Shown in pieces: positions 2,685 through 30,463 of a stretch of 64,000 nucleotides of DNA. The stretch is from contig MU394129.1 of the NCBI GenBank assembly GCA_022578605.1, positions 1 through 64,000 of the forward strand, written 5' to 3'. Position 1 is the stretch's first letter. Each line of letters starts with the position of its first letter. The notes beneath the pieces are model-generated. The model was not told the DNA's origin, searched no databases, and saw only the letters and a list, made by a program, of their open reading frames with translations. The stretch is from Camillea tinctor (Eukaryota > Ascomycota > Sordariomycetes > Xylariales > Xylariaceae). The position numbers and the translations under genes are program-made.

Positions 2685-2693
2685 TTATCAGAT
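2685..2693 (-). promoter_or_regulatory. ATCWGATAA iron GATA-factor motif
   Basis: TTATCAGAT on the plus strand, so ATCTGATAA on the minus strand. It is about 320 bp upstream of the FAD oxidoreductase and pairs with the opposite-strand site at 2580. Confidence 0.5.
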
Positions 2694-5122: not shown

Positions 5123-6508
5123 CTACAGCTTCGGCACAAGTCCAACCAGCGTGCCACCAACGATCTTCTCGCTCTCATGGAAGGGGCAGAGCTGGAAGAA
5201 GCGCTCGCGGGAGCACTTCATGAAGGCGGAGCGCTTATGGGGCAGGTCGACGAACTTGTCCAGCCCGAAGCCGTGGATGAAGTCGTAGGCCAGCACGGAG
5301 CTGTTGGTGTACTTGGGCTCGCCCACCACCTCGGTCGTGCGCGGGTCGTCAAGGAATAGGTAGTGCATCAGGCTCGACCACCACGCCGTCACCCGGTGCG
5401 GGCCCCGGAACCTTATGTCACCCACCAACGAGTGCCGTCCCCGGTCGAAGTCGCCTGCGCTATAGTACGCGCCTAGTCGGTCCTCCTGGATAGTGAGAGA
5501 ATAGGTTAGTAATTGTATAATAGCCACAAAGCATGGTATCGTATGTGTCTCTATGTAACGTACCTTGGCCCAGTACACCTCGAAGTAGGCGAAATACGTA
5601 TCCTCAAACCGTGCCAGGATGGTGATCTGGTGGGGGTCGTCGTGGGCCTTGCGGAGGTACTCGCGGTGCTGGTCGAGTGTGCCGGTCTCGTTCCATCCCT
5701 GGGAGACGCGGGGGTCATTCTGCCAGGTGTGGAAGAGCCCGAGGTGCTCGTCGTCCGTGTAGTCGAGCGCAACCATGCTGAAGGTCTCGCGTAGATGCGG
5801 GATCCAGCGCGAATAGATGACCGAGCCCGGGCGAGGCTTCGCCGGCCGCCGCGGGTGCCACGTTAGCACGCTACCCGGCTCGTTGGTCATCTGGTGCTCC
5901 GCTGGCGTTAGAGGATACGCCGATAGTGGCTTGGGCAGTGGTGCTGCCACTGAGGAGGCGTCCTCGGGGATCCAGGCTGTGCGCGGTCCGAAGGGCGAGC
6001 CGGCGCCTTGCCAGAAGGTGCTGCGCAGCACGAGGAGCTCGTCGGTTAAGCCGCTGGCAATGGGGTGGTCGACGGCGAGCAAGACGGCTTTGAGCTGTGC
6101 GGCGAGGCCTTCGCGGCCTTTGCCGGAGAGGTCGAGGCGGAAGCCCTCCATCGCTGGGCGGATGGTGAAGAGCACGTAGATGAGTAGCCAGGCCTGGCCC
6201 AGCGTCGGCGGCGTCTCACCGTCCCATGTGAACGTTGAGCTGGGCGAGCGGCGGGCTCGTCCCCATGGCGTGTTGTTGGATACGGGCGGGCGCTCGCTGG
6301 ATTTGAGGTCGGCTGGTTCGGTGAAGAAGAGAGAGTCGTTGTGTAGAGACTCTGGGGGAGGTGTTGACTTGTCTCCGGCTTTCTGGGTCGTCAATTGGAG
6401 CAAGGGAGCCGAGGACTCGGTTTTTCGTGATGACTTCACGAGGTAGTAAGGTGTGAGATATGGGTGTGGGAGCCTGATCACAGGCTGGTTCTCTTGATTC
6501 CCTGCCAT
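5123..6508 (-). CDS. sidF-like: SidF-like N5-hydroxyornithine acyltransferase (siderophore biosynthesis)
   Basis: Two exons on the minus strand, 6508-5564 and 5485-5123, giving 435 aa. The intron, 5486-5563 (78 bp), has a GTACGT donor and CAG acceptor and is removed because family proteins read EVYWAKEDRLGAYY across the junction. Left in, it is in frame and stop-free and would add 26 residues. The C-terminal half is a GNAT-fold acyltransferase of the IucB/SidF siderophore class: HTWQNDPRVSQGWNETGT, QHREYLRKA, FRGPHRVTAWW, PRTTEVVGEPKYTN. Family role: transfer of (anhydro)mevalonyl or another acyl group from CoA to N5-hydroxyornithine for fusarinine- or coprogen-type hydroxamates. The protein ends in PKL, a peroxisomal PTS1-type tripeptide, matching the known peroxisomal location of SidF. 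Three iron-type GATA sites lie 0.5-0.65 kb upstream. Acyl specificity (mevalonyl or acetyl) is not proven. Confidence 0.85.
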   Translation of the reverse strand: MAGNQENQPVIRLPHPYLTPYYLVKSSRKTESSAPLLQLTTQKAGDKSTPPPESLHNDSLFFTEPADLKSSERPPVSNNTPWGRARRSPSSTFTWDGETPPTLGQAWLLIYVLFTIRPAMEGFRLDLSGKGREGLAAQLKAVLLAVDHPIASGLTDELLVLRSTFWQGAGSPFGPRTAWIPEDASSVAAPLPKPLSAYPLTPAEHQMTNEPGSVLTWHPRRPAKPRPGSVIYSRWIPHLRETFSMVALDYTDDEHLGLFHTWQNDPRVSQGWNETGTLDQHREYLRKAHDDPHQITILARFEDTYFAYFEVYWAKVRYIETHTIPCFVAIIQLLTYSLTIQEDRLGAYYSAGDFDRGRHSLVGDIRFRGPHRVTAWWSSLMHYLFLDDPRTTEVVGEPKYTNSSVLAYDFIHGFGLDKFVDLPHKRSAFMKCSRERFFQLCPFHESEKIVGGTLVGLVPKL

Positions 6509-7011
6509 TGTGTACGTCTAGAATACCTAAGGTACTGAAAGAATGTGACTTCAATTGGCGAATAACAACAACTAACTGACTGACTGTAAGGAAAATCCTT
6601 CCAAACAAAAACCCTCCGCCTCTCCCAAACTTCAACAGAGTTTTGTTTGTTTCCAAGAAACCCCAGAAGCTATTAACTACAGTGGAGCCATGCTTCTTGC
6701 GTTAGATGACCGTTGCTATTTCGTATACGACTTACCTTGCTTGTATCCATACTATGGACCGGTCCTGCATTGGTGGTCTGTATACTGCTGTACTCAACCT
6801 CCTCGGAGGTCCGTAGTCAGCGTAAGTAACCTTCATGTACCAGTCCATAGCTGTTACGACTAGCTTGAATCAGTGACAAACTCGTTTCCGTGGCATGAGA
6901 AATCAGAATTTTCGCCACTAACGCAGACGATCGTACGTGAAGCGGTCCAATCTTCTTGGTTTTCTAGAGGAGATCACTGCATCGTCGGTCTTGGCGTACA
7001 TGCAAGCACGG

Positions 7012-7020
7012 ATCTGATAA
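7012..7020 (+). promoter_or_regulatory. ATCWGATAA iron GATA-factor motif 1 of 3
   Basis: ATCTGATAA preceded by ACGG. First of three same-strand sites in 139 bp, about 505 bp upstream of the SidF-like start. A CCAAT box at 6947-6951 lies 60 bp closer to the gene. Confidence 0.6.
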
Positions 7021-7087
7021 CTTTAAGTGGATTGGACTAGGGGGTAGAGGGGGTCCCCTTTGGACCGGGCAGCCCGGCTTTGAGCGG

Positions 7088-7096
7088 ATCAGATAA
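7088..7096 (+). promoter_or_regulatory. ATCWGATAA iron GATA-factor motif 2 of 3
   Basis: ATCAGATAA in the context GCGGATCAGATAA, 67 bp from site 1 and 45 bp from site 3. Confidence 0.6.
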
Positions 7097-7141
7097 TTTT
7101 TTAAAAGGGCCAACCCGAGTTCGGCGTCGATCTATCCTCGG

Positions 7142-7150
7142 ATCAGATAA
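7142..7150 (+). promoter_or_regulatory. ATCWGATAA iron GATA-factor motif 3 of 3
   Basis: ATCAGATAA in the context TCGGATCAGATAA. All three copies share a CGG immediately before ATC, so the conserved word is longer than the known core. Confidence 0.6.
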
Positions 7151-7367
7151 CAAACCGCGGGCCGATGTCGGCCTCAACAACATGGTCCATAGTGGAATGC
7201 TCCTAACTTAACCCCTTACATATTTCAAGATACATATCACATACAATCTGGTGAAAGAAGTATTAGGTTTAGCATAGACTGAGTGGAGAAAACTACTAGT
7301 TCAGAGTTTGGTAGTTTTTGTAGATACTCTACCTATCTTTCTTTTCGACTTCTGAAGATTAAATCAC

Positions 7368-7387
7368 TAGGTACCTAGGTACCTAGC
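7368..7387. repeat. 20 bp perfect palindrome of GGTACCTA words
   Basis: Reads the same on both strands: CTAGGTACCTAGGTACCTAG. All but its first base recur at 32552-32570. Related GGTACCTA words occur singly elsewhere, for example near 25470 and 31165. Confidence 0.6.
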
Positions 7388-9837
7388 CTACGTAGGCAGT
7401 TCGAAACCACGACGATGTAAAGGACGACATGGAATATAGAATGACCTCGGACGGTGTAAATATACGTAATATAATACCTAACTCAGTCCGACCTAAGCTA
7501 TACATAAATAACACGGATCCATGATTTACTAGATACACAGCCAGTAAATAAAATTATCTAGGCTCTTTTGTAGTATTGAACGGGTGTCATAGATTCACTC
7601 ATAATCAAGATCTATCTTCCCGTTCTTGCTAACATGAGAGAGCCCTTGATTTCATAGTCCAGTTAAATGCACTATGCGTGAGATAGCTAAGAAGAGGACA
7701 TGCAGACTTCCTACGTATTGATCAGAATACAACAAGTTATAATTTCCGTACTATTTAAGCATAAGAAGGATATGATTAAAGTGAAAAAATACTTAATACC
7801 AACACAACTATACTAAATGACCGAACCAGCGTTCATCTTGGAAATGCAAAGGGGTTTAGCCTTCATAGTCATTAACATGTAAAGAGAGCTTCAACGAGAT
7901 AGTTTCAGATGTGGATCTCAGCCCTATGGTCAGAGCCTGATGCCAAGAATACGGGGTACGTAGCTAGTCATTGAGTTAATGTACAGCTACCTACCTACAT
8001 AGTTGGTGTTTCAACTGTTGATTTTGGGTTGCTATGCAGATGCCCTACGGACTAGGGTCATGCAGAAATTTTGAGCCGCCAAACGACAACCAATGAGGGT
8101 TACGGATATCAGACAGGGACTCTTTGTCACAGACTCTTCAGGTCAAGCTAGCGATTTGGGAGGGGCAAAGGGTCTTTATCTGGAGTGGCACAGCGTAGAT
8201 GAAGGATGTTGTAATTGTCCATGCATGATAACAGATCTTCGGATAAGAGGGATGCTGTTACAATTATCAAGCTTACCCCCACGTTCTTTAATGACGAACA
8301 GGTCTCTCTCCGTTGGTTCTGACGGTAATTGGTATGAATCCATATAAATGATGATATCTTTAGAATTTCTAATATAAGATTTCTGACAATTTCAATATAT
8401 GTACACTGCAGGAGAGAGCATAGATTAAGAGATATTTCTGAAGGAAAGTAGAGTAATTTGGATACATTTATAAATGAGTTAGAGATATAGGGTTCTTATG
8501 CTAGACATATCGAAGTTGCAGAGATACATACATTCTTAGGCGCTGCCACTCTTTTATGTCTCTCTGTAAATAGGGCTATATTAAATATAAACTAAATGGA
8601 CTATCGTGCTTCATTTAATATACTCGAACAGGTTGATTACCATTTCCAAGGTCTGTCTATACGACTTCCTATATCTAGGTCTAGTTTGGAATTTGCGTGT
8701 ATCACGTCTTAATGATTCCTTCGACATAATACCTACCTTGAAACATTTAACTTTCTCCTGGAGGAGGGTTTGAGTATACAAGACAAGAGAGGAATGAGAA
8801 ACAAGACTTACAGGATTTTATCCTTTGTGTATAGCTAGACTACATTTTCACAGACTGTGAGTCGATAGATAGGTTTAATGCATACAATGTTATCTGTCAC
8901 ACGTCACCGAACTGTTACCATACCAACAACATTAAAAGTCAAACTCATTGTGGATAATTATGAATAACCATTGCTGGAGTAACTCATTCACCCGGCCTTT
9001 AAAGAATAAGGTTGTTCAATTGTCTAAAAGCCCACCGAGCAAACAATAAAATAATTATTTATCGACATAAGTGCTTCTCAGTGTCGGCCTTAAAACTTTT
9101 CACTTTCTCATACACATACTCAATCATAATTGTCGACTCTGACACGCGGAGATGGTCGCGTACCATCTCTGCTACTATCATAACAGTCCACGCCTTGGAC
9201 TTATAATTATAACAATCTCTTTCTTGAGTCATATACTTCATAATACATATGAATCCTAACCATTGCCTCCAATATGGGATCTCTTCCATTGGCTTATTCC
9301 TGGCAATAAATCCATTGCTATGGCGAGCACCCGTCATATCGACCGCCTGTCGATGTCGACATATACGGTGTATCGACGATAGAGTCAAGAATAGCTCTAA
9401 ATATGGTATGTAATTGTCAATGAACTGAATTATCCCACGCATATTCTTCCTTCCAAATACAAAATTCACTTGCTACACAAATCTCGAGCCCCGTCTTCTG
9501 CTCTGAATTCAGACCCAAAGCACCATTTCAGGTCTTGATCAATTCCACATACTTTCAAGCCCGATTTACCAATAAAATCTACGCTGCATATCACCCCAAC
9601 TAGAGTGCATCTGTAAATAGATTCTATTGATTCCTCCTGGTTCCCGGACAACAGTGTCATCCCACAGAGGCGCATCCAAAGCCAGCAGTCTCATCTTATC
9701 CTAGTCGAGATATCCCCAAAAGTATCTTGCTACCTTGGATCCTAGAAGCTAAGAGCTCCTGCTAACAAAAACCCAATCACTACAGTTCTGAAACTCTATC
9801 AGTCGAGGGCGCTACTATCCCGACCCCCTAGGCGACC

Positions 9838-10242
9838 ATGGACGAAATGTACCGGCTCCGAGGCGTGAGGCGCAAGCTTCAAGATGGGGCCCAGATTCTT
9901 AACCTCCGGGAACAGGATCTCCTGTACCGACAGATCGACCCGAGCAGTGAGTATCTTTGGCCGTCGATTGAGCTTCTCGCCACGCAAGTCATCAACCGAA
10001 CACCCCAGCTCACGACGAAGGTCGCGTTCTGGTACCGCAACAACCGCCCCAGCGACAAGGACACAGTCGTGCGCCTTCTGCGTGAGCGCCTCAGCCTGCA
10101 CTCAGCTGACGATGTCTTCGGTGAGAGGCTGAGCGTCGATGAGGTGGGTGAGCTCATGGACTGCCAGATGTTGCTTGACCAGGTTCAGAGGGAAATCAAG
10201 GAGGAGAAGAACAAGAAGAACGAGAAGGATAAGAAAGACTGA
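9838..10242 (+). CDS. Small uncharacterised protein, paralogue of the protein at 15450
   Basis: Intronless, 134 aa. The ATG is in a strong context (GCGACCATGG). No known domain is recognised. The protein looks helical and ends in a very Lys/Glu-rich tail (EEKNKKNEKDKK). It aligns over most of its length with the 139 aa protein at 15450: shared features are IDP, then NxTPxL, AxWYR, a leucine-rich stretch, and LSxDExxxLMDxQxLxDxxxxxE, ending in an EKDK tail. The two genes flank the beta-galactosidase. High GC at third positions and the matching paralogue support it as a real gene. Its function is unknown. Confidence 0.65.
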   Translation: MDEMYRLRGVRRKLQDGAQILNLREQDLLYRQIDPSSEYLWPSIELLATQVINRTPQLTTKVAFWYRNNRPSDKDTVVRLLRERLSLHSADDVFGERLSVDEVGELMDCQMLLDQVQREIKEEKNKKNEKDKKD

Positions 10243-10518
10243 TTGTCTCTTATCATGGCGGGCATGATGCAGGAGAGGGAGGAGTCGGGTCGGGGGATAT
10301 GATATCTCAACCCCACGATAGTCACCGTACTTTCTCACGAGACACCCAATCAAGCTATGATTCCTAAGCACACAGCCTTTTCCCGTAATCATTAACATAT
10401 TACAGATTACCTTTGCCATATGTGATAATACTTAATCGATTCATAAATCTCTGACGCATAGTCATATAGCCATTGAATTCATTACCGAATTAACCTATTT
10501 CATTAATTCCTCTTTTCC

Positions 10519-13500
10519 CTAATAAGCCCCATCCCGAGCCTCCCACTCCGGCGCCTCCACAAGCTGCACCTCTTCCCTCCCCGTCCACACCGGCGTCCCC
10601 GCCACGAGCTCCAAACCCGGAACCTTCGCACCGCCCTCATCAAGCGCCCACACCGACAGCCCGATCCAGTTCGTGCCCTTGTAATTCAGAATACCCTCAG
10701 GCACGGGGTACTCCGTCTGCGGGCCAATATCGCTAGTGTACTTGCCGAACTGCCAGCCGTTGATGTACAGCTGCGCGCGGTACGCGCCGCTCGACGTATC
10801 GTTCGTGAACACGAACGAGAGCGGGATGTCCCACGCCTCGGACGGCAGGTCGAGCGTGAACGGCGCGGCGTAGAAGGCCACCCCCGCGCTGGAGATCCCG
10901 TCGAAGGGCGTGCTCGCCGACCAGCCCGCGTCAGAGACGGGTGGATTCGGCAGGTGGTACCCGTGGCGCTCAGCGAACAAGCCACCCTCGTTGAGCGGGC
11001 CCCGCGCCGCGTCGTGGTAGTCCTCGCCGCCGAGGTTGCCGGTGAGCTTCCAGGAGATGGGCGTGTTAGTGGCCTTGGTGGTGTCGAAGCGCCAGCCAAC
11101 GATGCCGCGCGGGGACTTCATGTCGTCCTCGCCGATGCTGAGCTCGTTGTGGCCGGTCTGGTCGACGACCACGGTGAAAACGTGCGCGGACCCGGCTTCG
11201 AGGGACGATATGTTGTAGCTCGCTTGGCTGTACTCGGAGGACCCGTCGCCGTGGAAGGAGGAAAGCAGCACGTCGTCGAGCCAGATCGACGCGCCGAAGC
11301 CGCTGCCGCCTTGGGTCCAGAGCGAGAAGCTGTTCTCCCAGCCTGTGGCGTTGAAGTGGCCGCGGTAGATTAGGATGCCGGCGTTAAAACCGTAGTCGGA
11401 ACCAAATAGCGAGACGGGGGTGTTGAGACGCTGGTAAGTGTTGTTTGACGAAGTCAGATCGGCAACGGGCCAGGCGGAGTCATCGTAATCTGTTTTAATC
11501 TCGGGGAGCGTGTCGATGTACTTCCACTCGAGGTCCTTGAGTGCCGGGATGTCGTACCTCGGCTCATCCAGCGTGATGTTAGCCGTCAACGATGAGCCAT
11601 TTCCGTTCAACGTGAATTCGCGGTCGTTCACGGTAAATTTGGTGACTCCAGATGGCGCGCCGATAATCTCGATGGACGTGGATTTGTTGAAGTCAGCACT
11701 AATTTGCAGTGCGTTGTCGGCAATGGAAGCTGAGCGCACGAGGTAAGGTCCGTTGATAATAATCTTCGAACCATCATCTCCAGTGCTAGTAACCCAGTAA
11801 TTGTAGGCCGAGTTACGATCTTCATTTCGTTAGCCATATACGATGACGATGTGATCCAGTATACTCACCTAAAAGATACACTTGAACATCCCCGATCTGA
11901 AGAATGGACCTCTGCGGCGATGCGGTCCAGCCAACTGTTACAAATTCCGTAGAGTTGTCGCCTGCGAGTACGTAGTCTGCCCCATTCTCGATTTCCTTCA
12001 CTGCGCTGCGTGAACCCTGAATGGCGAACTCGTTGTACTCACCAGCTCCAGCATAGAGGATGAGGATCACCCCACTCTCCGTCTTCTGATGGGTGAAGAT
12101 GTCTGAGGTAGAATAGAGAACCTTGGTGCCTTGCACATCGTAGTCGGTAACCATCACTTTTGAATCTCTTCCATTCAGGGTTAGGGTCTGGTTCGTGACC
12201 GGGGCCGAAATGGACCCCTTGGATGTGGAGAAAGTAACTCGGTAGTTGGTCGATGCGGTATTAGCGTAGTTAGTATGCCTGACAATGAAGAATGATGCAG
12301 CTGCTGTGTCATTTGCTAGGAGTGGCGTTACGGTGATATCTCCATTATTGCTGTATTCATTGACAGTATTGGTGCCCGGAGTGGCTGTGAGATAGTCTGG
12401 GCTAGACTGGATGAAGGTAGCTTGAAGCTTGAGCTCGGAATATTTCTCTCTTGTGATCGTGCGGTCTTCCTTTATGACACTGCCATAGTCATAAGAGGTA
12501 TATCCGCCGGGATGGCCGAGGTTGCCCCAGTTAGTTCCTCCATAAATCATGTACAAGTTCAAGATGGTTACTCCCTATACATTTGTGTCTAATTAGTATA
12601 CAGCTCCGAATGAATGCATCGATTATTGTACTTACAGCAGCGTAGTTGTTCTTATAAAACACTCGTTCGAACTCATGGTTGATAAGCTCGCTGCACTTCT
12701 CAAACCCCCAGCCTCCCCAGGGATCAAAGCTGCCTGCCTGAAACTCAACGAGGGAGTATGGCGTGCTTGGACTTTGCTGTAGATGGGTTGACCAATAATT
12801 CGTTCGAAGGTTGCCAGAAGGCCAAACTGTTGGGTTTGCGCAGTCAAAGCCAAGAGGGTAGTTGTCATGCCCGTAGATATCAACTTCACCCACTCCGGTA
12901 CCCGGTGCATTATGGCCAGAGGAACGTGCATCGTTGCTAATAATGGGTACCACGACACCGGCCTTCTTGGATTGCTGAATCACGTATTCCATGTAAGCTC
13001 CGTCGGGGAACGGGAGATAGCTGACTGCGCCTGTGTACTCGTTCTCAGGCTGTAGTAGGATGACCGGTCCGCCATTGGTGATTTGAGCGTCTGCGATGAT
13101 TTTGGCAATATTCGACATGTAGTTGTCGGTTGCGGCGAGATAATCAGGCGCCGAAGTTCTCAAAGTTCCTCGAACCCTTGAAACCCATCCCGGGAATCCT
13201 CCTCCGCTTGCCTATCCAGATGTATTAGCGCCGTGAGATCGACCTGGTAGCTATTTCAAGAGTTCTTCGAAATTTGAATAGGCGTTTTGATGACTTACCT
13301 CAGCATTGATATATGGTCCTGGGCGTGCGAGAAGGTAGAGACCTGCCTTTTGGGCAGCATCAAAGAATGGCTTGAGATCAAAGACTCCTTCAGCCTTGAA
13401 GTTCCCAGGTTTCCCTTCTAAGAGGGCCCAATCCACATAGAACGATACACAATTTAACCCCATCGCCTTCACTTTCTGGAAGATGTCTAGCCATAATGAA

Positions 13501-13706
13501 GGCACCGGGAGTCTGAACGGATGGAACTCCCCGCTGAAGATCATGAGCCTCTCGCCATTGATAAACAAAGAACGGTTGTCCCAGGTCACAATGTCCTGGT
13601 CAAGTTGTCTATCCTCAATTGTAGTTCCGAGTTTGCCTCCTGCACCTGAAGCAGCGCAAACCTGGAGAGCTTGGACCACTCCGGCTAAGATTAGCGATGG
13701 CTTCAT
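10519..13706 (-). CDS. lacA-like: Secreted GH35 beta-galactosidase
   Basis: Four exons on the minus strand: 13706-13299, 13211-12636, 12574-11869, 11819-10519, giving 996 aa, close to the ~1005 aa of Aspergillus LacA. I chose the ATG at 13706 because it begins a signal peptide ([20 protein letters not shown]); an in-frame ATG 14 codons upstream would bury it. The GH35 barrel contains LLQPENEY with the acid/base Glu near residue 194, and [14 protein letters not shown] with the nucleophile Glu near 292. The spacing equals that of the classical E200/E298 pair. Beta-galactosidase domains 2 and 3 follow, then two jelly-roll modules ([28 protein letters not shown]). Role: removes terminal beta-galactosyl residues from plant polysaccharides outside the cell. 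It is an ordinary catabolic gene lying inside a siderophore-gene region; no functional link is evident. Confidence 0.92.
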
Positions 13707-15449
13707 CTTGGAGAATGGTACAAGTGAAGACTCACGAAGACCCCTCACTCAGCAACAGGTGGGTGAATAGAGTTAATAAGTACGACAGCTCTCCTGCTTT
13801 GTGCCTTATAGACTAGGCAGGATGCAGCAGCTACATGGTTAGTTTAAGCATATCGTGTTGTTCGTGCGTATGATGGAGATCGTATTGGGGTCTGTGGGGT
13901 TCGGAAACCGGGATTAGGTTGGTCTCGAAGAGCCATTGTCTGTGTTGCTTGGTGGACAAATCAGCTCACCGTTGAGCCTGAATAATAAGCGAGTAGACGG
14001 ACCAAAGAATCTGAATGACGAAAAAACCGGCAAGCTGCAAGGTGATCTCAGTACACCCAAAATACCGAAATTAAATCCCCGCACGTTGATCATTGGGTGG
14101 TAGTCGATGCTATCGTTACTCCTCGATTGGGAAATACCTCGGTGAATATGGATCGTGCTATTCAGAAGGATCACCTTACTCGGTCTATTATCCTGCCGAT
14201 TTATTGGAGAAATGTGTGACGCCCCTGAGTATACTTGATCTAGATGCTTAATGTCACACTGCGTGGCTAAAGTAGCTAGATCCAATGCAGGTCCGTTCAC
14301 ATGTGCCGCATGCGCTCCTATGATCATCGAGATATTTGAGTTGCACCGCCTAACTTTAAGCTGTCGTTAATATGAACCAAATATTTATATGCTCAAGGGC
14401 ATAGTATAAGTTAGAAGGCTGGTGTAGTGATATTGTGTCGTATAAGAACATTTAAGTTTACAATCTGGTGTCTACTATTTTCAAAGACTCATCAATGGAA
14501 TTAAGACCAAAAGGAGGGATTGAAGGTATTCCGGGCATTCCGGAACTAGTAGCGCCTAAAGAAACTAAGATGCTTGATTTGACAGCAGAGATCATGGGTC
14601 GAGATATCAAAAAGAAGGCTCCTTTAGATCATTAGTGTCTATTTATACAAAGGGGCTTGTATGGGAAAGCCTTTGAGTATTTAGTTTCAATTAAATCAAT
14701 ATAATTATCATATTCTGATGAAAAAAAAAGATGTAAAAAAATCGTCTCCTTTAAAACTAATGCTACGTCAAATTCAATATTTCCATCAATCAACATGTGT
14801 ATTTCTACTGCGCAGCTCATTATATCCTACCAACTTAAGTCCAGAAAGTTACGTAGATGAATATCTATCTATTTATTTGATTCTTAGAGAATAACATAAT
14901 TACATCAGATTTGTTTCACATGACAGAGTGATCTTTATACTCGAAGACAAGTCCAAGGTAGTGACTTGATATCGACTCGAAACTATTGTGCATCGAACCA
15001 CAAGAAAGAGTTCTGTATCAATAAACAATATCCGAACTTACAAAACTAAATTTTTGTAACATCTAAAATTTGAGCTGAGAGGTTAAGAGCCATCATCATG
15101 ATAATCTCCTGGGAAATATTACAATGTTCTGTGTTTTCAGTAGATAGTTTCTGGTTTGCCTCTAAGTAGTAAGGCAAGTCCTCTCCTTCCACAGATGTAG
15201 ATTTTCCGCAAAACAACAATGTTGTTCGACCAAATTTATCCAAACTTCCGTTGCCTAGCAAGCAATCAAAATGGTTGCCAGTGCGATGGCATTAACTTCT
15301 TTCCACTCGTGCACCATCATTCACTTGCTTTGCTACCAGTAAAATATTCTCATAATCACCACCGCTATCCTTTCTACTGCATCACTACCACCGTCGCTAC
15401 CACCATTACTACCACTGCATCACGACTACTGCATCGCCTACAAACCAAG
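13707..15449. other. Intergenic region between beta-galactosidase and the second small gene
   Basis: Divergent promoters lie at its two ends. The inner part (about 13900-15200) is AT-rich with only short frames. The last ~130 bp before 15450 are rich in CACCAT/CACTAC repeats on the plus strand, typical of a transcribed fungal 5' leader. No RNA gene was found. Confidence 0.5.
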
Positions 15450-15869
15450 ATGTCTACAGCATCCGTCGCCGGTAACATGCACGCATCCAAGCAGCAAGAA
15501 GTCTTAGAATCGTTCGGAGTCTACCTCGCCAAAGGAGCGCGGGAAATCAGCAACAACCTGCAAGCCACGCTTGTCGAGCTGATCGACCCGAACAAGCCGG
15601 AGCAGCGGTCCAGCCTCGGGGTCATCAGACATAACATCACGAACCTGACACCTGTGCTTTCACTACACCTAGCTAAATGGTACCGCGCCCAGGGAAACAA
15701 CAGCATCGCTATCGAGGTCCTCAGAAAGGCACTGAACAACACAGACGGCGCCGAGAGCGAGGTTTTCATGTCCTTGGATGAGCTTGCTGATTTGATGGAC
15801 CTGCAAATCCTGCATGACGAGATCATGAATGCTGAGAAATACAAGAGCGCCGAGAAAGACAAACAATGA
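15450..15869 (+). CDS. Small uncharacterised protein, paralogue of the protein at 9838
   Basis: Intronless, 139 aa, starting at an ATG in context CCAAGATGTC. The frame stays open upstream to 15219, but that part is a Thr/His-rich leader of simple-sequence type and is taken as 5'UTR. There is no recognised domain. Residues from about 47 onward align with the 134 aa protein at 9838: IDP, NLTPVL, AKWYR, an Ile/Leu helix, SLDELADLMDLQILHDEI, and a charged EKDKQ end. No signal peptide or membrane segment is seen. The tail carries fewer Lys than its paralogue. Function unknown; an ancient local duplication is the simplest origin. Confidence 0.65.
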   Translation: MSTASVAGNMHASKQQEVLESFGVYLAKGAREISNNLQATLVELIDPNKPEQRSSLGVIRHNITNLTPVLSLHLAKWYRAQGNNSIAIEVLRKALNNTDGAESEVFMSLDELADLMDLQILHDEIMNAEKYKSAEKDKQ

Positions 15870-17190
15870 ATCCAGCCTCCGTTGCCTGCCCAACCATGTG
15901 TGAGAGACTGAAAGAAAAAGTTTCGATAGGTCACAGCTTGTCTAGTTCACTTGTCCAAGGTATGTTGACTCTCCTGCCCTATTCATTATAATTTTGACAG
16001 AGGGAGACTGACAATGAGTGCTTTGAAAAATAGGTCCATAACAATGAATCTAGGAAACCGATCACGGATGTGCGGGAGAATCGTCATGATGCAGTGGTAC
16101 TGTGTATATTATATGTATATCTCGGCGGCATAGGCACATATCAGTGCAACCAGGAAGCTTGGGAAAAGAGACAAAGGAAATGAAGAAGAATACGGCGGAC
16201 GCACGCATAATTACTATACTTAATAAGTAATAGTTACTCGAGAATTCCGGGTTGAAGGATTCGGCATAGAGTAGGGTGATAGGAAATTAGAGCTTCGGCA
16301 GTATATTAACAGAACTGGCTAATTTGACTTGTGAATTCGTCTTGTTTCTAATCCAATAAAACGCTCTTACAGATTCCTTAAGGATAAAGGGAAAGCTACT
16401 TAGGAAAGGTTAGACTCGTGATTCTGAATGCCCTCAATATCAGGCACCTGTAATTGCTATTCTACAATAACATACTGTTGGAATATGGGGTTACCACCCC
16501 ACTCTACGGTACTACACTACTACCACATGTACATATATATCGGGCTTCCGCCCTCCTCATAGACTCTCTCCTGTACTAATACACTTCATCCTTTTCCTCA
16601 CCTATCGTCTCACTCCAATACATACAATATCCCAACCAGCAGGGGTCTACAAGCTAACAATCTCCCTACCTCCTACATCAGAGATTTTTACCTTTTTCGG
16701 GGTTTTTCTTTCAATTTTCAGTTTTCCCACAAAGAAATCATACACCCATTCACCCTCACTCTCCTATCTTTATCAGTGAAGCAAACACCATGAACTGCAT
16801 ATATGAAAGAGTTCCTATAACAACTGATAAGAGTAATCGCGTAGAATGTTGTGCTAGGTAAAGCCTGTTGACTAAGGGAAAGTTAAATCATGACTGGGCA
16901 TGCATATACCGAGCTGTTATATCACCCCTTCCAGCTGCAAGCGAACAAAAAAAAACACCATGTAGACAATGAAGTTTATAATAGAAGCAATAAGCTAATA
17001 AATGAAGTTTCTCTTTTTGTTTATATAACCTGACCACCCAAACTCTTTTCTTCTGTGCGTTCCCCTCTATATACACCTCCCTTCTACCTCCTCTCCCTCA
17101 ACGCCCCATCCCCCCTTTTCATTTCTAATGCCTCCTTTTCTACCATTACCAACCCCTTCCCTCCCCCCTCAAAATAAAAAAGAAAAGCCT
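15870..17190. other. Intergenic region with a possible solo LTR
   Basis: AT-rich DNA between the small gene and the 3' end of the acyl-CoA ligase. Contains an LTR-like segment at 16476-16638 and a pyrimidine-rich stretch at 17080-17170 just past the ligase stop. No gene is visible. Confidence 0.5.
16476..16638 (+). repeat. Possible solo LTR (about 163 bp)
   Basis: Begins TGTTGGAATATGGGGTTACC, has a TATA-like ACATATATAT about 55 bp in, then a short GC hairpin (GGGCTTCCGCCC) and a CT-rich segment, and ends CAATATCCCAACCA. The TGTTGG...CCAACCA ends form an imperfect inverted repeat, as in fungal Copia LTRs. No clean target duplication is seen, so this is tentative. Confidence 0.35.
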
Positions 17191-19111
17191 CTACAGCTTC
17201 TCCAACCTCCTCTTCCGCAGCACCTCCTCCCCAAACCTCGCCATCTCATACTTCTTCACCTTCCCGCTCCCCGTCAGCGGGACATCAGCGGGGACGCCGT
17301 CCTCGCCAAGCCAGAACACGTGCGCGGGGCTCTTGTGGCGGCCGAGCTCCTGCTGCACCCACTCGCGCACCTGCTGGTCGGAGGGGCGGGGCTGGGTCCT
17401 ATCGTGCGGCAGCAGGAAGGCGCCGACGACCTCGCCGTAGTGCGCGTCCTTGAGCCCCGTGACGACGGCCTGGGCGATGGCGGGGTGCGCCACGAGGCGC
17501 TCTTCGATTTCGAGCGGGTAGATGTTTTCTCCGCCTATGTCTGGGGGTCAGTGAGGGACAGGGGAGGAAGGATAAAGGGGGGGGGGGGGGGGGGATTAGG
17601 GTGGTGGTAGGAGGAGGAGGGAATGCGAACTCACCTCGGATAATGATATCCTTGAACCGCCCCGTGATGCTGCAGTACCCCTGATCATCGAACACCGCCT
17701 CGTCCCCCGTGTGCAGCCACAGCACGCCCGCCTCGTCGCGCACCATGACCTCGGCCGTCTTCTCCGAGTTATTCCAGTAGCCGGCCTGGAGCTGGTACCC
17801 GGCGATGCACAGCTCGCCGCGCTCGCCGACGGGCACGATGTTGCCCGCGTGGTCGACGATCTTGGCGCGGGCGTGCGGCATCAGCGTGCCGACGGTGGTG
17901 AGGCGCCGCTCCACGGCGTCGTCGGTGAACGCGTTGAAGCACGTGGGCGACGCCTCGGTGAGCCCGTAGCTGCTGGTGAACTCGGTCATGCCGAAGCGCG
18001 AGACGAGCAGCTCCATGAGGTAGCGCGGGACGGGCGCGCCGGCGATGATCCCCGTGCGCAGGCGCGAGCAGTCGAAGCCGGGCGGCGTGGGCAGCGCGAA
18101 GAGCGTGTCGAACATGGCGGGCACGCCGTGCACGGCGGTGCAGCGCTCGTCGGAGATGGCGCGCAGCACGGCCGCCGGGTCGAAGGTCTCCTCGGGATAG
18201 ACGATCTTGGCGCCGTGGGTGAGCACGGCCATGAGCCCGAGGACGAGCCCGAAGCAGTGGAACAGCGGGGGCGGGCAGCAGAGCACGTCGTCGGGCGTGA
18301 GCCGCATGCGGTCGCCGATGAAGCGCGCGTTGTTGACGATGTTGTGGTGTGTGAGCATGGCTGCTTTGGGGAGCCCCGTCGTGCCGCTCGTGAACTGCAG
18401 GTTGCACACGTTGTGCGCGAGCACCTTGCGGCCCTGCCGGTAGAGCGGGCTGTTGCTCATGCGCTGCCCCTGCTTGATGAGGTCGGCGTACGTGGGGTAG
18501 GATCCCGAGTCTCCCCTGAGGATCACCACGTTGGGGGCCTTCTTCTGCTTGGCGAGCTCGGCTAGGAGTCTGCCATTGTCTGTCCTGCCGATCTTCTTGG
18601 TCGTGAAAAAGACCTTGCAATCTGAGATTGATGGTTAATTTGTTTATCCCTGCACTCTGTGTTGTTCAAGGTTGCTCTCAGAACGCTTGATAGGGGAAAA
18701 GTATATCTTACCAGAAAATGATAGAGCGTATAGAGCCTCCGTTGGCGTATACGTGTTGTTGAGGATCACCAAGATGGCACCGATCCGAGCGACGGCAAAG
18801 AACACGGCGGCGTACTGTTCGCAGTTCCCGGCCATTATACCGACGCGGTCACCGACTCCGATGCCGAGCGACATCAGCGCCCTGGCCAACTGCGAGCTCT
18901 GCTGGTTCAGCTCGTTATACGTCCATCTCGCCCCCGTCCACGGTGTAACAATGCACTCCTGTGTCCCGTGATGTTGGCATTGCAGCTCCAGCAGCTCCCC
19001 GAGAGTCAAGTCCACTAGCGGAGGGTCGACTGGGCCCTCCAGGAGCGATAGCTTCTGGCTCTGGAACCGTGCCTCGGTCACAGGCGAGGAGGTTTCTATC
19101 TGTGTAGCCAT
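17191..19111 (-). CDS. sidI-like: SidI-like acyl-CoA ligase (AMP-binding)
   Basis: Three exons on the minus strand: 19111-18712, 18621-17635, 17534-17191, giving 576 aa. The introns restore LSFSDCKVFF and DIIIRGGENIYPLEI. ANL-superfamily motifs appear in order: LQFTSGTTGLPK (P-loop, near residue 210), YGLTEASP (~350), LHTGDEA, GRFKDIIIRGGENIYP (~458-473), and LTGSGKVKKYEM with the C-terminal catalytic Lys near 553. It activates a carboxylic acid through an acyl-AMP to its CoA ester. Near a SidF-like enzyme and two siderophore-type transporters, the best guess is a mevalonyl-CoA ligase of the SidI type, which supplies SidF. That is inference: sequence alone cannot exclude a medium-chain acyl-CoA ligase. 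The protein ends in EKL, not a classical PTS1, and I see no clear PTS2. Intron 2 contains an 18-base C run on the coding strand. Confidence 0.8.
17577..17594. repeat. 18-base G homopolymer inside ligase intron 2
   Basis: An uninterrupted G run on the plus strand (C on the coding strand), wholly within the 100 bp intron 17535-17634. It is liable to length variation and sequencing error. Confidence 0.9.
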
Positions 19112-19844: not shown

Positions 19845-19878
19845 CATACATACATACATACATACATACATACATACA
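19845..19878 (+). repeat. (CATA)n microsatellite
   Basis: About eight perfect tandem CATA units. A short (GAT)n tract follows at 19935-19952. Confidence 0.95.
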
Positions 19879-20327: not shown

Positions 20328-20336
20328 ATCTGATAA
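20328..20336 (+). promoter_or_regulatory. ATCWGATAA iron GATA-factor motif
   Basis: ATCTGATAA in the context AGCGGATCTGATAAG, sharing GCGG with the copies at 2580 and 7088. It is 1.2 kb upstream of the SidI-like ligase start and 1.1 kb beyond the 3' end of the siderophore transporter, so the target is most likely the ligase. Confidence 0.45.
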
Positions 20337-21472: not shown

Positions 21473-24014
21473 CTAAATAACCATCCCCTTAACCTGCCTC
21501 GACCGACTCAGCCTCTTATCCCTCCACACCGCCACCGCCACGATCTCTAGCAGACTCACCGCCGTGCCCACGATGCACATGCGCAGCTGCGCCTTCCCGT
21601 ACGCCGCGATAATCGCGTCGCGCACGGGGCTGCCCACGGGATACGCAAGCTGCCTCTTCAGGTCCGCGGCGATGGCCGCTCGCTCCGCGGGCGTCATACC
21701 CGGCAGCAGCTCGGCGAGGGCGGCGGGCAGGGTGGAGTTCCAGATAGCGCCGCTGAGGGAGGACCCCATGGCGGAGCCGACGTACATAGCGAGGGATAGA
21801 AGGGCCATGGCAGACGCGAGCTCGCCGTGTTCGACGACGGACCACACCGCCATTTGGTCGCAGACGACGAGCGTGCTGCCGCCGATGGTTATGAGGATCT
21901 GGCACGCGACGACCCAGACGAGGCTCGAGTCGGGGCGGCGGAAGAAGATCATGAGGGCGCCGCCGAGGATGTGCACGGGCAGGGCGGCGACGGCGATCCA
22001 CTTGAAGCGGTCGGAGCGGCGGATGAGGTAGCCGACGACGATGGCCCAGATGCACGAGCCGAAGCCGTAGATGTGGCCGATGTAGCCGGCCTGCGTGATG
22101 TTGAGATCGTGCACCACCTGCAAGTACGACGTGTAGTACCCGTCCCACGAGAAGTAGGCCACGAAGATGGTGATACACAGCAGCCACGCGCCCGCCACGT
22201 TGCGCGACATCAGCAGCGAGAACTTCATGAATGGCCGCGGCGTGCGCCGCTCGTGCAACACGAACACCGCCATGCAGGCTACGCCCACCACGATCGCTGC
22301 CGTGTACGAATTCAGCCCGTGCTTAGTCTCTTGAGAGCCCGCGAGGGAAAAAGGCACTAGGATCAATGTGAGACCTGCGGTGATCAGGAGCATTCCCAGA
22401 GCTATTATCAACATATGGATTAGTTTTTTTTCGTCATTTCCTTTCTCACCCAGTCACCCCAATTTTCCCCATGAGGGGAAAAAGGGGGAAGGAATGAAAT
22501 AATAATTAGGGGGCAACGGGGGGTTAAGTTTGCTTGACCGATACGGACATACCATCGAAGTCCACCAAATGCCTCCTCACATTGCGCCATGTCCACCCGC
22601 TCGCGGCGCCATCCCCGGTCGCCGTCGCTGCAGTGCTCTTCTGCAGGACGCCTAGTTTCTTCGCGCGGGATGCGTTGAGCACGAGAATGGCGATAATGGG
22701 GACGCACAGGACGGCGAATAGAACGGCGAAGAACACGAAGGCGCCGCGCCAGGCATCCTTGGCGTAGAAGGCACCCGCGATGATGGGTCCCAGGAACGAG
22801 GTCATTAGGTTCGGCGTCGAGCTGAAGGCCATGGCCAGCACACGGTTCTGTAGCGACGACGTGTCCGCCACGATGATGTCGAGCACGTACGAGAACCCGC
22901 TGACGCCTACTTGATATATGACCTGCGAAGCAAGGGGTGGATTAACACTCATGGATTCGTTGGAGGAAAAGGGGGAAAATAGGGGGAAGGGGAGAAGGAG
23001 GGGTGATAGAGGTGATGCAAGCATGTTCATCATCATTATCACCTAAAAACTCCCCCCTGTCTCCATATGAAGAAGAACCCAAAGAGTCCAACTAACCTGT
23101 GAAGCAGCATACGTCTGCACACTCTGGCTAGCAGCCATGAGGACCAAGCCGAAGGTAGCCAAAGTCGTCATAGCCGTGAGACCCTGAGGGCGGCCCCACG
23201 TGTCAATAAGCTTGGCGACGGGCAGCTTGAGGATGCCGCTGAGGATGGAGGCCACGATGCCGATGGTGGGAATCAGGGAGTGAGAGGCGAACTCGCTGAC
23301 GACGAAGGGCATCAGGTTCGACATGACCTGGTACTGAAGATCGCGGGCGAACGCGCTTAGGAATATGCTATATAGGAGGTGGTGGTAATCACACACGATA
23401 TATCAATACATTGTTTTCATTTTCTCCATTTATTTTACTTTTTTTTTGTCTCGTTCGTTTTCTTGGTTCAATACTCGGGGGATTCATTATCATTACTCCA
23501 AATGCTCTAGCCGAAAAAGCAAGATGCAACGATGATAAAATAAAAGCACCGAAAATCATAGCGATCGTGTAACAAACAGAAAAAAAAACAAGAGGAAAAA
23601 CAGATGTCATTGCAACCTGACTCTGCATGGACTGACTTACAATAAGTAGGCCGTCACGAGCGCGGTCTTGGTCCAGACGAGGTTGATAGCATCAGCCTGC
23701 TGAACGCCATCTTGCGAGGCGATGGTTGACGAGTCCGCATCTCGAGCACTAGCAACGTCATCATCATCGCTGTCGTCGTCGTCTTTACTCGAGACGGAGC
23801 CATAGGTATCTGTGCGACGACGGCCATCAAATCCCTCACCGAATCGCCCTTCTTCTTCTTCCGTGTTACTGTTACTCCTACTCCTGTTCTTCCGGCTCGA
23901 CGATCGCGAACTTAGTAAGGGGGCCCGACTGCCCCGGGCTGCGGAATCGTCCATTTTGATAGATTCTGATGCTGACGCTGATGATGGGGGAACCCTTCGG
24001 TGCAGTTTGGACAT
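21473..24014 (-). CDS. MirB/Sit1-type siderophore-iron transporter (MFS)
   Basis: Four exons on the minus strand: 24014-23641, 23367-23097, 22922-22553, 22401-21473, giving 647 aa. Another ATG 14 codons upstream (24056) is possible. The N-terminal ~105 residues are cytosolic, Ser/Arg/Asp-rich with a run of acidic residues. About 14 hydrophobic segments follow, as in the siderophore-iron transporter family of the MFS. Family text is clear: IFLSAFARDLQYQ, FASHSLIPTIGIVASI, LPVAKLIDTWGRPQG, VLDIIVADTSSLQNRVLA, AFSSTPNLMTSFLGPIIAG, AKDAWRGAF. Role: proton-coupled uptake of ferric hydroxamate siderophores across the plasma membrane. Which siderophore cannot be read from the sequence. Two ATCWGATAA sites lie about 1.5 kb upstream, shared with the divergent ABC transporter. 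Intron 1 is 273 bp, long for this window; the others are 151-174 bp. Confidence 0.88.
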
Positions 24015-25510: not shown

Positions 25511-25519
25511 ATCAGATAA
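25511..25519 (+). promoter_or_regulatory. ATCWGATAA iron GATA-factor motif
   Basis: ATCAGATAA, about 745 bp upstream of the ABC transporter and 1.5 kb upstream of the MFS transporter start. Confidence 0.5.
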
Positions 25520-25645
25520 CTCAGACCATCGACACGGGCTTGACGGGTCCCCCGTTTAGTAAGTTAAGGCGTTGCTGCGTGCTGTTGGTTGGCTTTGCAC
25601 TTGGTTGGGTCGCCTCGTCGGATTCCCCCTACAAAAAAAACAATC

Positions 25646-25654
25646 TTATCAGAT
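25646..25654 (-). promoter_or_regulatory. ATCWGATAA iron GATA-factor motif next to a CCAAT box
   Basis: TTATCAGAT on the plus strand. A CCAAT box follows at 25674-25678. Nearby GATA and CCAAT elements are the known arrangement for genes controlled by both SreA and the HapX/CCAAT-binding complex; the exact spacing of a HapX site was not established. Confidence 0.5.
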
Positions 25655-26263: not shown

Positions 26264-29200
26264 ATGGCCTCGAAGTCTGCTTCGCAACCCGAAGAAGGCG
26301 TCGTGCCTCAGAGCAACAGCTCTAGCGATAATGGCAGCACGAAGAACGGGCTAGTCCAGCAGATCAGGACCAACATTTCCAGCGTATGTTCACACCCTCC
26401 AATCAGAAATTTTGGTGCTGTGTTCACATGCCCACAATCACCAAAACGCTGACGACACCCTCAAGTCCCTAGGAAGTATCTTTAGCTACTTTCACCTCCT
26501 AACATATGGCGAGCCTACAAAAGTCGACATTGCGCTGCTGGTGGTAGGCACTATATGCGCAATCGGAGCCGGTATACCTTTTCCTCTTCTCGGTGTTCTC
26601 TTTGGCGAGCTCGTAGACGATCTCAACTCGGCATCATGTACAGCAGGGGCTACGGAGTCGCAATCCCCAGAGGAATATCAAGCCTCCGTCAACGAGAAGG
26701 TTCTTCTGGTCATGGCCGCCGCATTGGCTCAGTTCGGCCTTCTCCTCGTTAACACGACATGCTGGAATCTCTTTGGTGAAAGACACGCTCACCGTATAAG
26801 GGAGCGGTACTTCCGTTCTCTTCTACGCCAGGAAGTCTCCTTCTTTGACAAGCTGCCGGCTGGAGAGGTTTCTTCACGACTCAGTGCCGATATCGAGACA
26901 ATCAAGAGCGGAACAACTCAGAAAGTTGGTACTTACATCGGAGTAGTCGCGCTGTTTATAACCTCCTACATCATAGCTTTCATCAAAGGTGCCAGGCTCG
27001 CTGGTATTCTTGTCTGCCTTATCCCAGCATGTTTTTTCATGTCTATTGTCGGTGGCCATTACGTCGGAAAGTTCGCCAGTCTCGCCTCAGAACACGTTGC
27101 AAATGCCTCTTCCATTGCACTGGAAAGTTTGTCGAATGTCATGGTCGTGCATGCTTTCCGAGCCAATGACCGACTTGAAAACAAGTTTGCAAGCAAGCTT
27201 ACCGATGCAAAGAAAGCTGGAGTCAAGAAAGCTGTCGTTACTGCTCTCCAAGCCGGTCTTCTATACTTCATAGCCTTTGCGGCTAGCGGCCTGTCGTACT
27301 GGCAGGGTAGCAAAGCTATCGCGGACGTGATAGCAGGCCGCACTCACGGGACAACCGTGGGCTCCATTTACACCATCATATTCCTTCTGGTCGACGGTAA
27401 GATCCCGCTCGTGCAAAAGCGTGGTTACAATCTACTGACGTACCTCCTCTAGCTTCTATCGTCCTAAGCCAAGTATCGCCGTTCCTCCAGATCTTTGCTT
27501 CCGCTGCATCGACACTGAAGAAATTGGAGAAGGACATGGACCGTGAGTCCAAAATTGACGGAACGATTGATGCCCCCGAAGGCCAACTCGATGAATTCCA
27601 CGGCGATGTCAGACTTGAAGAAGTGGCCTTTACCTATCCATCACGACCCGACGTCCCAGTTATCAAAGGCGTTTCTCTTCACCTCCCGGCAGGAAAATCT
27701 ACAGCAGTTGTTGGTCTGTCCGGAAGTGGAAAGTCTACAATTGCGGGACTGCTCACACGTCTGTATGACCCTGATAGTGGAAGTGTCTATATCGATGGAA
27801 AAGATATCAAGGAAATAAATGTACGTCAGCTTAGAAGTCACATAGGACTTGTGCAGCAAGACCCTCTACTCTTGGACAGATCGGTCATGGAAAACATCGC
27901 ACTAGGACTTATCAACTCATCACGTCCCGAGCATGCTGCATTTCAACCGATACTTCTAGGCACGCAGCTGGAGAAGATCGCGGAATCTGTCCGTTCTGGC
28001 CAAGATATACTAGCTGCGGCGGAGTCGCACGGCCCAGAAGCCCTTGAGATTGTTCGCATGGTACAAAATGCAGCAGACCTAGCAGACGCCGCGATTTTTA
28101 TGGATCGTTTAGAGTTTGGGCTTGCAACTGGCGTTGGTCCCAATGGCGACCTCCTGAGTGGTGGTCAAAAGCAACGAGTAGCATTGGCCAGAGCTTTAGT
28201 AAAGGACCCGCGAATTCTGGTTCTTGACGAGGCAACGTCGTCGTTGGACTCAGCTAGTGAACAACGCATCCAAGGCGCTATTGAGAGGGTCTCCGCCGGT
28301 AGAACGGTCATTTCGATTGCACACCGTCTAGCCACCGTCAAAAATGCCGACAAGATCGTAGTTATGCGAAATGGAAAGGTTATAGAAGAAGGAAACCATA
28401 TGTACCTCATGGCTAAAGATGGAGAATATGCTGCTTTGGTGCGACTACAGAACATGGGCTCAGAAACTTCTAGTGTCAGCACTTCGAAAGAAGCAAGCCA
28501 CTCAGACCTAGACGTCGAAAAGGTCTCTGACGCCTTGATCATCGATGAAGAGAAGGCGGTGCTAGAAACTGATGCTAGAGGAGCCGAAAAGCAGGCACCG
28601 GAAGCGCCGCAAGAAGCTGGATCAAAAGACCCCCAAACCACGAGGCCCGCCTGGTCCACGATTAAGAGTATGGGCTCTATTACTCGCCCGTATCTCCTCA
28701 TGATTTTCGTCGCATTCTTTGCCGCTACCATTGTTGGTGGAACCTACCTAGGCTCGGCGCTCATCTTTGGCCATACAATCAGTGCCCTCAGCCCATGCAA
28801 CACAGAGCAGGCCATTCTGGCAGCCGGTAGCTTTTTCGGCCTCATGTTCTTTGTCCTTGCCATTATAGAGCTATTTGCCAACGGCGCGAGCTGGTCAGCA
28901 TTCGGATGGATAGCAGAAAAGGTCCTGTATACCATCCGAGTGCTCACCTTCCGATCGCTGTTCGAGCAAGACCTCCAGTGGCACCAGTCGGAGAATCGCA
29001 CCCCATCCATGTTGCTGTCTTTCATCACGAGCGATTCGGCCTCAGTCGGTGCACTAACGGGATCTATTGTCGGAAATATCTTCTCAATCTTTGTTAATTT
29101 CATTGCTGCCATTGTCGTGACTCACATCATCGCGTGGAAGATCGCGTTGGTTTGTCTCGCAGCGGTGCCTCTTATGCTGGGCTCCGGAATCATGAAGATG

Positions 29201-30463
29201 TGGATTCTTTCACGATTCGCCGAGCGACACGAGAAGGCCTTCTCCAAGTCGGTCAGCATCACCGTGGAGGCGGTCAACTCGATCAAGACAGTGGCCGCAC
29301 TCTCGTTGGAGAAGGAGGTCCTCGGAACTTACCACCGGTCCCTCGCTGGCCCACGCAAAGAGATAACCCGCTGGAGCATTTGGGCGAATTTCTGGTTTTC
29401 AATTGCCCAGAGTATTTCCAGCCTCATCTACGCTCTGGGGTACTGGTGGGGATCCAAGCAGATCATCGCAGGAACCTACTCGCAAACGCAGTTCTTCATC
29501 GTTTTGATCTCTCTCCTCGTCAGTGCCCAACAATGGGGTGCGCTATTTGCCCTTGCCCCCGAGATCACCAGGGCGGGTAGGGCCGTAGGACGTATCTTCG
29601 ACCTGATCGACCTTGGCTCGTCGCAGACATTGGCGCACAAAGGGTCCTCATCCTCCTCTGTGGGGGATGCGGAGGCAGCAGTCGAGTCCAAACCGCCCAC
29701 TTCCCCAAACGGACAGGGGCTTGCGGTGAAGTTCAAACAAGTCAGATTCTCATATCCCGCTCGACCGAACGTCCAGGTGCTAAAGGGGCTGGATATCGAC
29801 GTCAAACCAGGGCAGTTCTGCGCGTTGGTGGGTCCTAGTGGCGCTGGTAAATCCACCATTATCTCGCTGCTGGAGCGCATGTACTGGGCAGAGTCTGGGG
29901 TAATCGAAGTCGGGGGAATGGATATCTGCGCCAAGAAAGAGCCGTTGTTCCGGGACGACATTGGTCTCGTGCCCCAAGACAGCGTCCTCTTCGACGGCAG
30001 CATCCGTTTCAACGTGGCCCTAGGAGCGCGTCCGGGGGTTGAACCGTCAGACGCGGATGTGGAGGAAGCGTGCAGACTGGCCAATATCCACGAAACTATC
30101 GTCGCACTGCCGGACGGCTACGACACTCAATGCGGACCCAATGGCAGTCAGCTGTCCGGGGGCCAGAAGCAGAGACTGTCTATTGCCAGGGCCCTAGTGC
30201 GTAAACCCCGACTTTTGCTGCTCGACGAGTCAACTAGCGCATTGGATGCGGAGTCGGAGAGGCTGCTGCAAGATGGTCTGGAGAAGGCAACGCGGGGTAT
30301 TACGGTTATGGCCATTGCCCACCGGCTGCATACTATCAGACGTGCAGATGTGATCTTCATGATCGAGGATGGCCGGTGTGTGGAGAAGGGATCCCATGAG
30401 GAGTTGCTAGCGCGGAGTGAGAGCTATCGCGTTAATGTGCTGCACCAGACCTTGGACGGTTAG
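26264..30463 (+). CDS. SitT-like full-size ABC (ABCB/MDR) transporter
   Basis: Three exons: 26264-26383, 26466-27396, 27453-30463, giving 1353 aa. The start ATG has a strong context (GTCACCATGG). Intron 1 has a CTGAC branch site; intron 2 has ACTGAC. The layout is TMD1-NBD1-TMD2-NBD2. NBD1: GLSGSGKST near residue 437, LLSGGQKQRVALARAL near 583, ILVLDEATSSLD. NBD2: GPSGAGKST near 1143, LSGGQKQRLSIARAL near 1249, LLLLDESTSALD. All Walker A/B and signature motifs look intact, so both sites should bind ATP. A charged linker follows NBD1. Family role: ATP-driven export of lipophilic compounds. In Aspergillus fumigatus a transporter of this type (SitT) sits in the siderophore cluster, and the divergent MirB-type neighbour with shared GATA sites argues for the same setting. 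A general multidrug transporter is the alternative. Confidence 0.88.

Follow-up and report, generated by a model that had tools for sequence, protein, structure and literature searches.

The first 64,000 bases of contig C79 (MU394129.1) of the fungus Camillea tinctor, referred to here as the window, carry the siderophore genes sidF and sidI together with two transporter genes. We propose that the window is very probably one of several loci that between them specify an ordinary pathway for an extracellular hydroxamate siderophore, with coprogen/dimerumic acid as its most likely product. The window starts at the first base of the contig, in a genome of 44,688,122 bases and 154 contigs. A preliminary description of this DNA, covering positions 5123 to 30463, had proposed a partial or split siderophore cluster with an acyltransferase, an acyl-CoA ligase, a major facilitator superfamily (MFS) transporter and an ATP-binding cassette (ABC) transporter, and all four genes were recovered by hand splicing of the gene models combined with homology or domain matches. 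Gene identities, gene positions and the enrichment of an iron-repressor motif could be read directly from the sequence; the identities appear firm for SidF, SidI and SidH and weaker for SidD, both transporters and SidL.

Identification of SidF and SidI

The gene sidF (5123..6508, minus strand, one intron) codes for a 435-residue putative N5-hydroxyornithine:anhydromevalonyl-CoA transacylase, whose best PDB match was A. fumigatus SidF (7qf6; 440 bits, 1e-130, residues 3-417 of 435). The other Acetyltransf_8 gene of the genome, a paralogue on contig C9 compared through its long first exon only, scored 72 bits against the SidF structure. On these scores the acyltransferase is best read as SidF, as had been suggested, and no grouping away from SidF was seen. 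Its C-terminus, PKL, is a variant of the type 1 peroxisomal targeting signal (PTS1).

The gene sidI (exons 19111-18712, 18621-17635 and 17534-17191, minus strand, two introns) codes for a protein of 576 residues with a C-terminal RRLEKL, for which mevalonyl-CoA ligase activity is predicted. Across the 120 homologues listed (the best 120 of 7995 above threshold) identity ranged from 73 to 94%, the nearest among them being that of Biscogniauxia mediterranea (94%), and those bearing the name sidI came from Metarhizium (74%), Apiospora and Verticillium. A search of the genome with the Metarhizium sidI gave 66-75% identity per exon for the window gene and 40% for the runner-up by score, with no piece elsewhere above 43%. 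By this search no other gene of the genome comes close to SidI, and the orthology of the window ligase takes the Metarhizium protein named sidI, not A. fumigatus SidI, as its reference. The grouping with ordinary ligases that the preliminary description had allowed for was not seen.

It could be argued that the ligase and the acyltransferase are genes of ordinary acyl-CoA metabolism that lie together by chance, given that the best 25 of the 107 NCBIfam families found for SidI include general acyl-CoA ligases, none of them above its cut-off. This explanation is strongly disfavoured, to the point of being exceedingly improbable, by the orthology to SidF and SidI, by the shared iron motifs, by the adjoining transporters, and by a comparable set published for Scedosporium (PMC5932178).

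Pathway genes on other contigs

SidD and SidH had been described as absent from the region, in agreement with our domain searches: PF00668 (Condensation) gave 34 matches in the genome and PF00378 (ECH_1) gave 11, with none of either on C79. A search of the genome located candidates for SidD/NPS6, SidH, SidA, a SidC-like nonribosomal peptide synthetase (NRPS) and a SidL-like gene on other contigs. Because the genes described as absent lie elsewhere in the same genome, the cluster is split, one of the two options of the preliminary description, and there is no need to call it partial.

The SidD/NPS6 candidate, on contig C66, is an NRPS encoded by a single open frame of 1861 codons (1818 residues from the first methionine). 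Pfam searches on three pieces of this frame found one AMP-binding, two PP-binding and two Condensation domains, giving the order A-T-C-T-C; that the first carrier domain precedes the first C domain was judged from the sequence itself. This is the architecture given for the Scedosporium sidD product and for NPS6/SidD (PMC6737921). Of the 120 homologues listed, four bear the name fusarinine C synthase or nonribosomal peptide synthetase 4(-like). Among the ECH_1 loci, PDB comparison was applied to the gene on C57, whose best match was A. fumigatus SidH (7oeq; 288 bits, the next match scoring 152); its product ends in SKL, as do 120 of the 120 homologues listed, its own record included. On C22, SidA lies within 20 kb of an NRPS with six condensation-domain matches, which we read as SidC-like, and the C9 Acetyltransf_8 gene, far from SidF by its score, is read as SidL.

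Three further NRPSs with two condensation domains were considered for SidD before that on C66 and set aside, none of them by means of a tree. The main frame of that on C14 contains three AMP-binding stretches, and its neighbour is an ABC gene of the TMD0 type; that on C27 reads T-C-A-T-C in its pieces and adjoins a flavin mono-oxygenase-like frame; and that on C48 was judged by its domain pattern only. Separately, contig C45 carries near its end (2986-16312) a large NRPS of some six condensation domains, and 30 kb from it lies a weak match to the Lys/Orn oxygenase family.

Iron-repressor motifs

The motif ATCWGATAA, described as that of the repressor SreA (PMC2610380), occurs 11 times in the window, against a mean of 1.20 and a maximum of 5 in 100 shuffles. 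Genome-wide it was found 790 times, against 604 for the reversed pattern; at that rate 64 kb should hold 1.13 copies, and at least 11 would arise with a Poisson probability of 3.5e-8. None of the 11 exact sites falls inside the nine window genes checked. Three (1892, 2580 and 2685, together 1892..2693) are placed 1445, 757 and 652 bp 5' of the start codon of an AMID-like oxidoreductase gene, three (7012..7150) 504, 580 and 634 bp 5' of sidF, one 5' of sidI, and two (25511..25654) between the mirB and ABC genes, in their divergent promoter. Elsewhere in the genome, two sites were found 5' of the C66 NRPS and one each 5' of a SIT-like gene on C11, of sidA and of a SIT-like gene on C9; the pieces of the C14 and C27 NRPSs that were examined had none.

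A 12-letter motif, CGGATCWGATAA, has five copies in the window out of 24 in the genome, the reversed control having six. Because this motif was devised after the window sites had been viewed, its window copies are not independent evidence, unlike those found 5' of sidD and 5' of the C11 transporter. Seven GATA matches were found in the genome, and one open reading frame, on C61, has two fingers, which we take to be the layout of SreA. When iron is plentiful, an SreA-type GATA factor would probably repress the gene set through ATCWGATAA. The pathway is a clear example of siderophore genes divided among at least four loci, most of them preceded by a single kind of iron-repressor motif.

Several points weigh against reading the window as part of such a co-regulated, split pathway. 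The genome-wide excess of ATCWGATAA over its reversed control is just 1.3-fold. The single site of sidI (20328..20336, plus strand) lies 1217 bp 5' of the start codon, a distance of 1.2 kb; two sites at 35182 and 35194 (35182-35202), 12 bases apart, have no gene identified for them; and the motif was absent from the 2.1 kb 5' of the sidH region and the 1.7 kb 5' of the sidL region. With the 12-letter form and two mismatches allowed, the window showed no enrichment (8 against 6.1, with 29 of 100 shuffles as high). As to the gene labels, most remaining names among the listed C66 homologues are generic, with a few that would mislead ('surfactin synthetase subunit 3', 'nps1'), and the labels SidD, SitT and MirB were drawn from architecture, homologue names or setting and not from direct comparison with the characterised Aspergillus proteins. 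The lack of sites near sidL and sidH fits in part with Scedosporium, in which sidL is described as not iron-responsive and sidH as induced by starvation and not repressed by excess iron (PMC5932178).

Oxidoreductase, transporter and interleaved genes

The AMID-like oxidoreductase gene (3337-4777; exons 3337-3511, 3588-3929, 4008-4673 and 4743-4777, plus strand) was overlooked in the preliminary description, whose left edge at 5123 excludes it. It is convergent with sidF across a gap of about 345 bp and codes for a 405-residue FSP1/AMID-like FAD/NAD(P)H oxidoreductase, with a PDB match to FSP1 at 4e-16 and a Pfam match to Pyr_redox_2; elsewhere in the genome it has distant matches (25-31% identity). 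In A. fumigatus, Afu1g17180 is annotated as 'pyridine nucleotide-disulphide oxidoreductase AMID-like' (PMC10455693) and belongs to the SreA-regulated cluster SRGC2 (PMC2610380), and by locus number it adjoins sidI (Afu1g17190) and sidC (Afu1g17200) (numbers from PMC5932178). In A. nidulans its orthologue An0403 forms a pair with An0404, the orthologue of the ABC transporter Afu3g03670 (PMC2610380). From name and setting we take the window gene as the putative counterpart of Afu1g17180; it is probably a co-regulated siderophore accessory. A literature search found nothing on a link between FSP1 and siderophores. With this gene, an accessory role in the use of siderophores by fungi that has yet to be assigned gains a named candidate.

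The putative MirB-type siderophore-iron transporter of the MFS (21473..23954, minus strand, three introns, 627 residues) gave a Pfam MFS_1 match from the frame of its last exon and no PDB relative at E 0.001. It has two weaker paralogues in the genome, on C9 and C11, of which the MirB-like transporter on C9 lies about 10 kb from the SidL-like gene (a pair that includes 387620-389230), with one ATCWGATAA 5' of the transporter. The ABC transporter gene (exons 26264-26383, 26466-27396 and 27453-30463, plus strand) codes for two transmembrane regions and two nucleotide-binding domains, the full-length ABCB layout. Its product is SitT-like and may be the orthologue of SitT (Afu3g03430) or of Afu3g03670, a second SreA-regulated Aspergillus transporter.

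The beta-galactosidase and the two unknown genes that had been noted as interleaved are indeed present. The former (10519..13706, minus strand) was confirmed as GH35 by Pfam; the latter, A (9835..10242) and B (15450..15869), both on the plus strand, have no Pfam match and flank the GH35 gene. A and B are paralogues, with a local alignment score of 128 against a mean of 28 and a maximum of 55 in 500 shuffles, and a genome search with them returned A and B as the only two matches. No ATCWGATAA was found within 2 kb 5' of any of the three, all of which lie in the 10.7 kb separating sidF from sidI. This suggests that the beta-galactosidase and the two paralogues are passengers and that the AMID-like gene probably belongs.

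The GH35 gene and two unrelated genes between sidF and sidI, with SidD and SidH outside the window, are also what a decayed or partial siderophore cluster with an incomplete pathway might show. We consider decay very unlikely, given that SidD, SidH and SidA exist elsewhere in the genome, that the spliced models of sidF, sidI, mirB and the AMID-like gene and the open reading frame of the C66 SidD are free of internal stops, and that the promoters retain iron motifs.

Proposed pathway and product

In hydroxamate siderophore biosynthesis, SidA hydroxylates ornithine, SidI activates mevalonate, SidH carries out the dehydration, SidF transfers the anhydromevalonyl group and SidD joins the units. 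For Camillea the reactions, the regulation and the product are proposed from the genes found. SidA (C22) would hydroxylate ornithine, and the window SidI would make mevalonyl-CoA for dehydration by SidH (C57). SidF, also in the window, would then place the anhydromevalonyl group on N5-hydroxyornithine, and SidD/NPS6 (C66) would join the acylated units. The ABC transporter would probably export the product or move siderophore across a membrane; the excreted siderophore would bind iron, and the MirB-type transporter would take the ferric siderophore back up, with the oxidoreductase beside sidF in its probable accessory role.

A study of Hypoxylaceae reported coprogen and dimerumic acid in one medium from all screened strains except Xylaria hypoxylon, the screen leaving out three of the sequenced strains (PMC8403587). 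Because these relatives make both, coprogen/dimerumic acid is our first guess for Camillea. The anhydromevalonyl-hydroxyornithine might instead feed another product, such as a fusarinine or, via the SidC-like NRPS, an anhydromevalonyl ferrichrome. The sequence of NPS6/SidD is described as not telling coprogen from fusarinine (PMC5932178), and a SidC-like NRPS is present in the genome; set against the compounds made by the Hypoxylaceae (PMC8403587) and a separate SidL-like acetylase for ferricrocin-type products, these points leave another product unlikely.

The C-terminus of SidI

The window SidI terminates in RRLEKL (17191-17211, minus strand). Among the 120 listed homologues, the best 120 of 7995, 46 end in EKL, 40 in SKL, 23 in AKL and 11 in other tails. 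A tree of these homologues with the window protein (121 rows; a quick IQ-TREE run with SH-aLRT and no bootstrap, unrooted, the tail columns kept in) contained a supported group of 60 rows, with 47 EKL, 10 SKL or AKL and 3 other tails, and EKL occurred in none of the 61 rows outside it. The rows of the group that bear a name are xylarialean in the broad sense, four of its database rows being without one. Of the 60 rows, 57 end in KL (K at -2, L at -1); all 57 have R at -5, and 55 of them have L at -4. Beyond the group both -4 and -5 are variable.

The five Sordariomycetes tabulated in PMC3709128 have SidI ending in SKL or AKL, and the PTS1 consensus quoted there is (S/A/C)(K/H/R)(L/M). Two observations speak against EKL as an import signal: E at -3 falls outside this consensus, and the SKL and AKL tails inside the EKL group amount to at least three returns or retentions (four label changes on the tree). 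In ascomycetes outside the Sordariomycetes the signal expected of SidI is of type 2 (PTS2), but neither the first 51 residues of the window SidI nor the first 60 of any of the 120 listed homologues showed a PTS2 pattern. The tail of human ACSVL5 has been called a non-canonical PTS1, in a passage relevant to EKL (PMC7829553), and a literature search restricted to open papers found no statement on EKL in SidI. Because a purposeless tail would be expected to drift, yet the RRLEKL end is nearly fixed, EKL is in our judgement more likely than not to serve the SidI of this lineage as an import signal.

We lean slightly towards one or other of two accounts of the xylarialean SidI tail, as opposed to a change irrelevant to location: either EKL would be a working lineage-specific PTS1, or SidI would have left the peroxisome while SidH (SKL) and SidF (PKL) stayed. 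Moving one or two of SidI, SidH and SidF to the cytosol is reported to lower siderophore production, and moving all three to cause no such drop (PMC3709128). If SidI has left the peroxisome, this published shared-compartment rule would be broken; the EKL tail makes the rule directly testable in a group reported as coprogen makers.

A second biosynthetic region

A second, separate biosynthetic region was observed at 45600-62000 of the window. It comprises genes for a fungal transcription factor (45599-46780), a cytochrome P450 (48385-50304), a highly reducing polyketide synthase (about 52873-60274, minus strand) and a short-chain dehydrogenase (61480 on).

Comparison with known siderophore clusters

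The gene set had been called a well-known one of Aspergillus, which did not hold: in Aspergillus sidI sits with sidC, and the combination of sidF, sidI, sitT and mir is the Scedosporium arrangement, which Trichoderma and Colletotrichum are reported to resemble (PMC5932178). Siderophore genes are reported as clustered with varying content in these three genera (PMC5932178), and Scedosporium SidD is placed in the NPS6/SidD family (PMC7655970). Split siderophore clusters are already known, and a single ancestral cluster, later reorganised and separated, has been proposed (PMC2610380).

The sidD cluster of Scedosporium apiospermum contains sidD, sidF, sidI, sidL, sitT and mir, with sidH elsewhere (PMC5932178). 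Camillea resembles it in that sidF and sidI share a locus with one gene of predicted mir type and one of predicted sitT type, with sidA by a SidC-type NRPS and sidH apart, and differs in having sidD and sidL on other contigs and the GH35 gene and two paralogues between sidF and sidI. The coprogen/dimerumic acid clusters of Metarhizium robertsii include mrsidD, and a sidF-like and a sidI-like gene (MAA_05336 and MAA_05335) that are neighbours by locus number (PMC8656255), unlike the separated sidF and sidI of Camillea. As with MrsidD, the Camillea SidD has one full module and one without an A domain, and sidA, found in the ferrichrome cluster of M. robertsii, likewise lies by a SidC-like NRPS in Camillea (PMC8656255). 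In Neurospora and Podospora, two of the five Sordariomycetes tabulated, the accession numbers of SidI and SidF are consecutive (PMC3709128), which suggests that sidI and sidF are neighbours there.

The five tabulated species also provide a comparison of tails. Like their peroxisomal enzymes, Camillea SidF ends in PKL, as listed for four of the five (Neurospora, Podospora, Magnaporthe and Gibberella; table 1 of PMC3709128), and SidH in SKL, as in five of the five; unlike their SidI, that of Camillea ends in EKL (PMC3709128). With the A. fumigatus clusters SRGC2 and SRGC3, Camillea shares the ATCWGATAA motif, and the SreA-regulated sets likewise include the AMID-like Afu1g17180 and ABC transporters (PMC2610380; AMID-like name from PMC10455693). 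It departs from A. fumigatus, in which sidC/sidI and sidF/sidD occupy separate clusters (PMC2610380), in that the AMID-like gene stands beside sidF.

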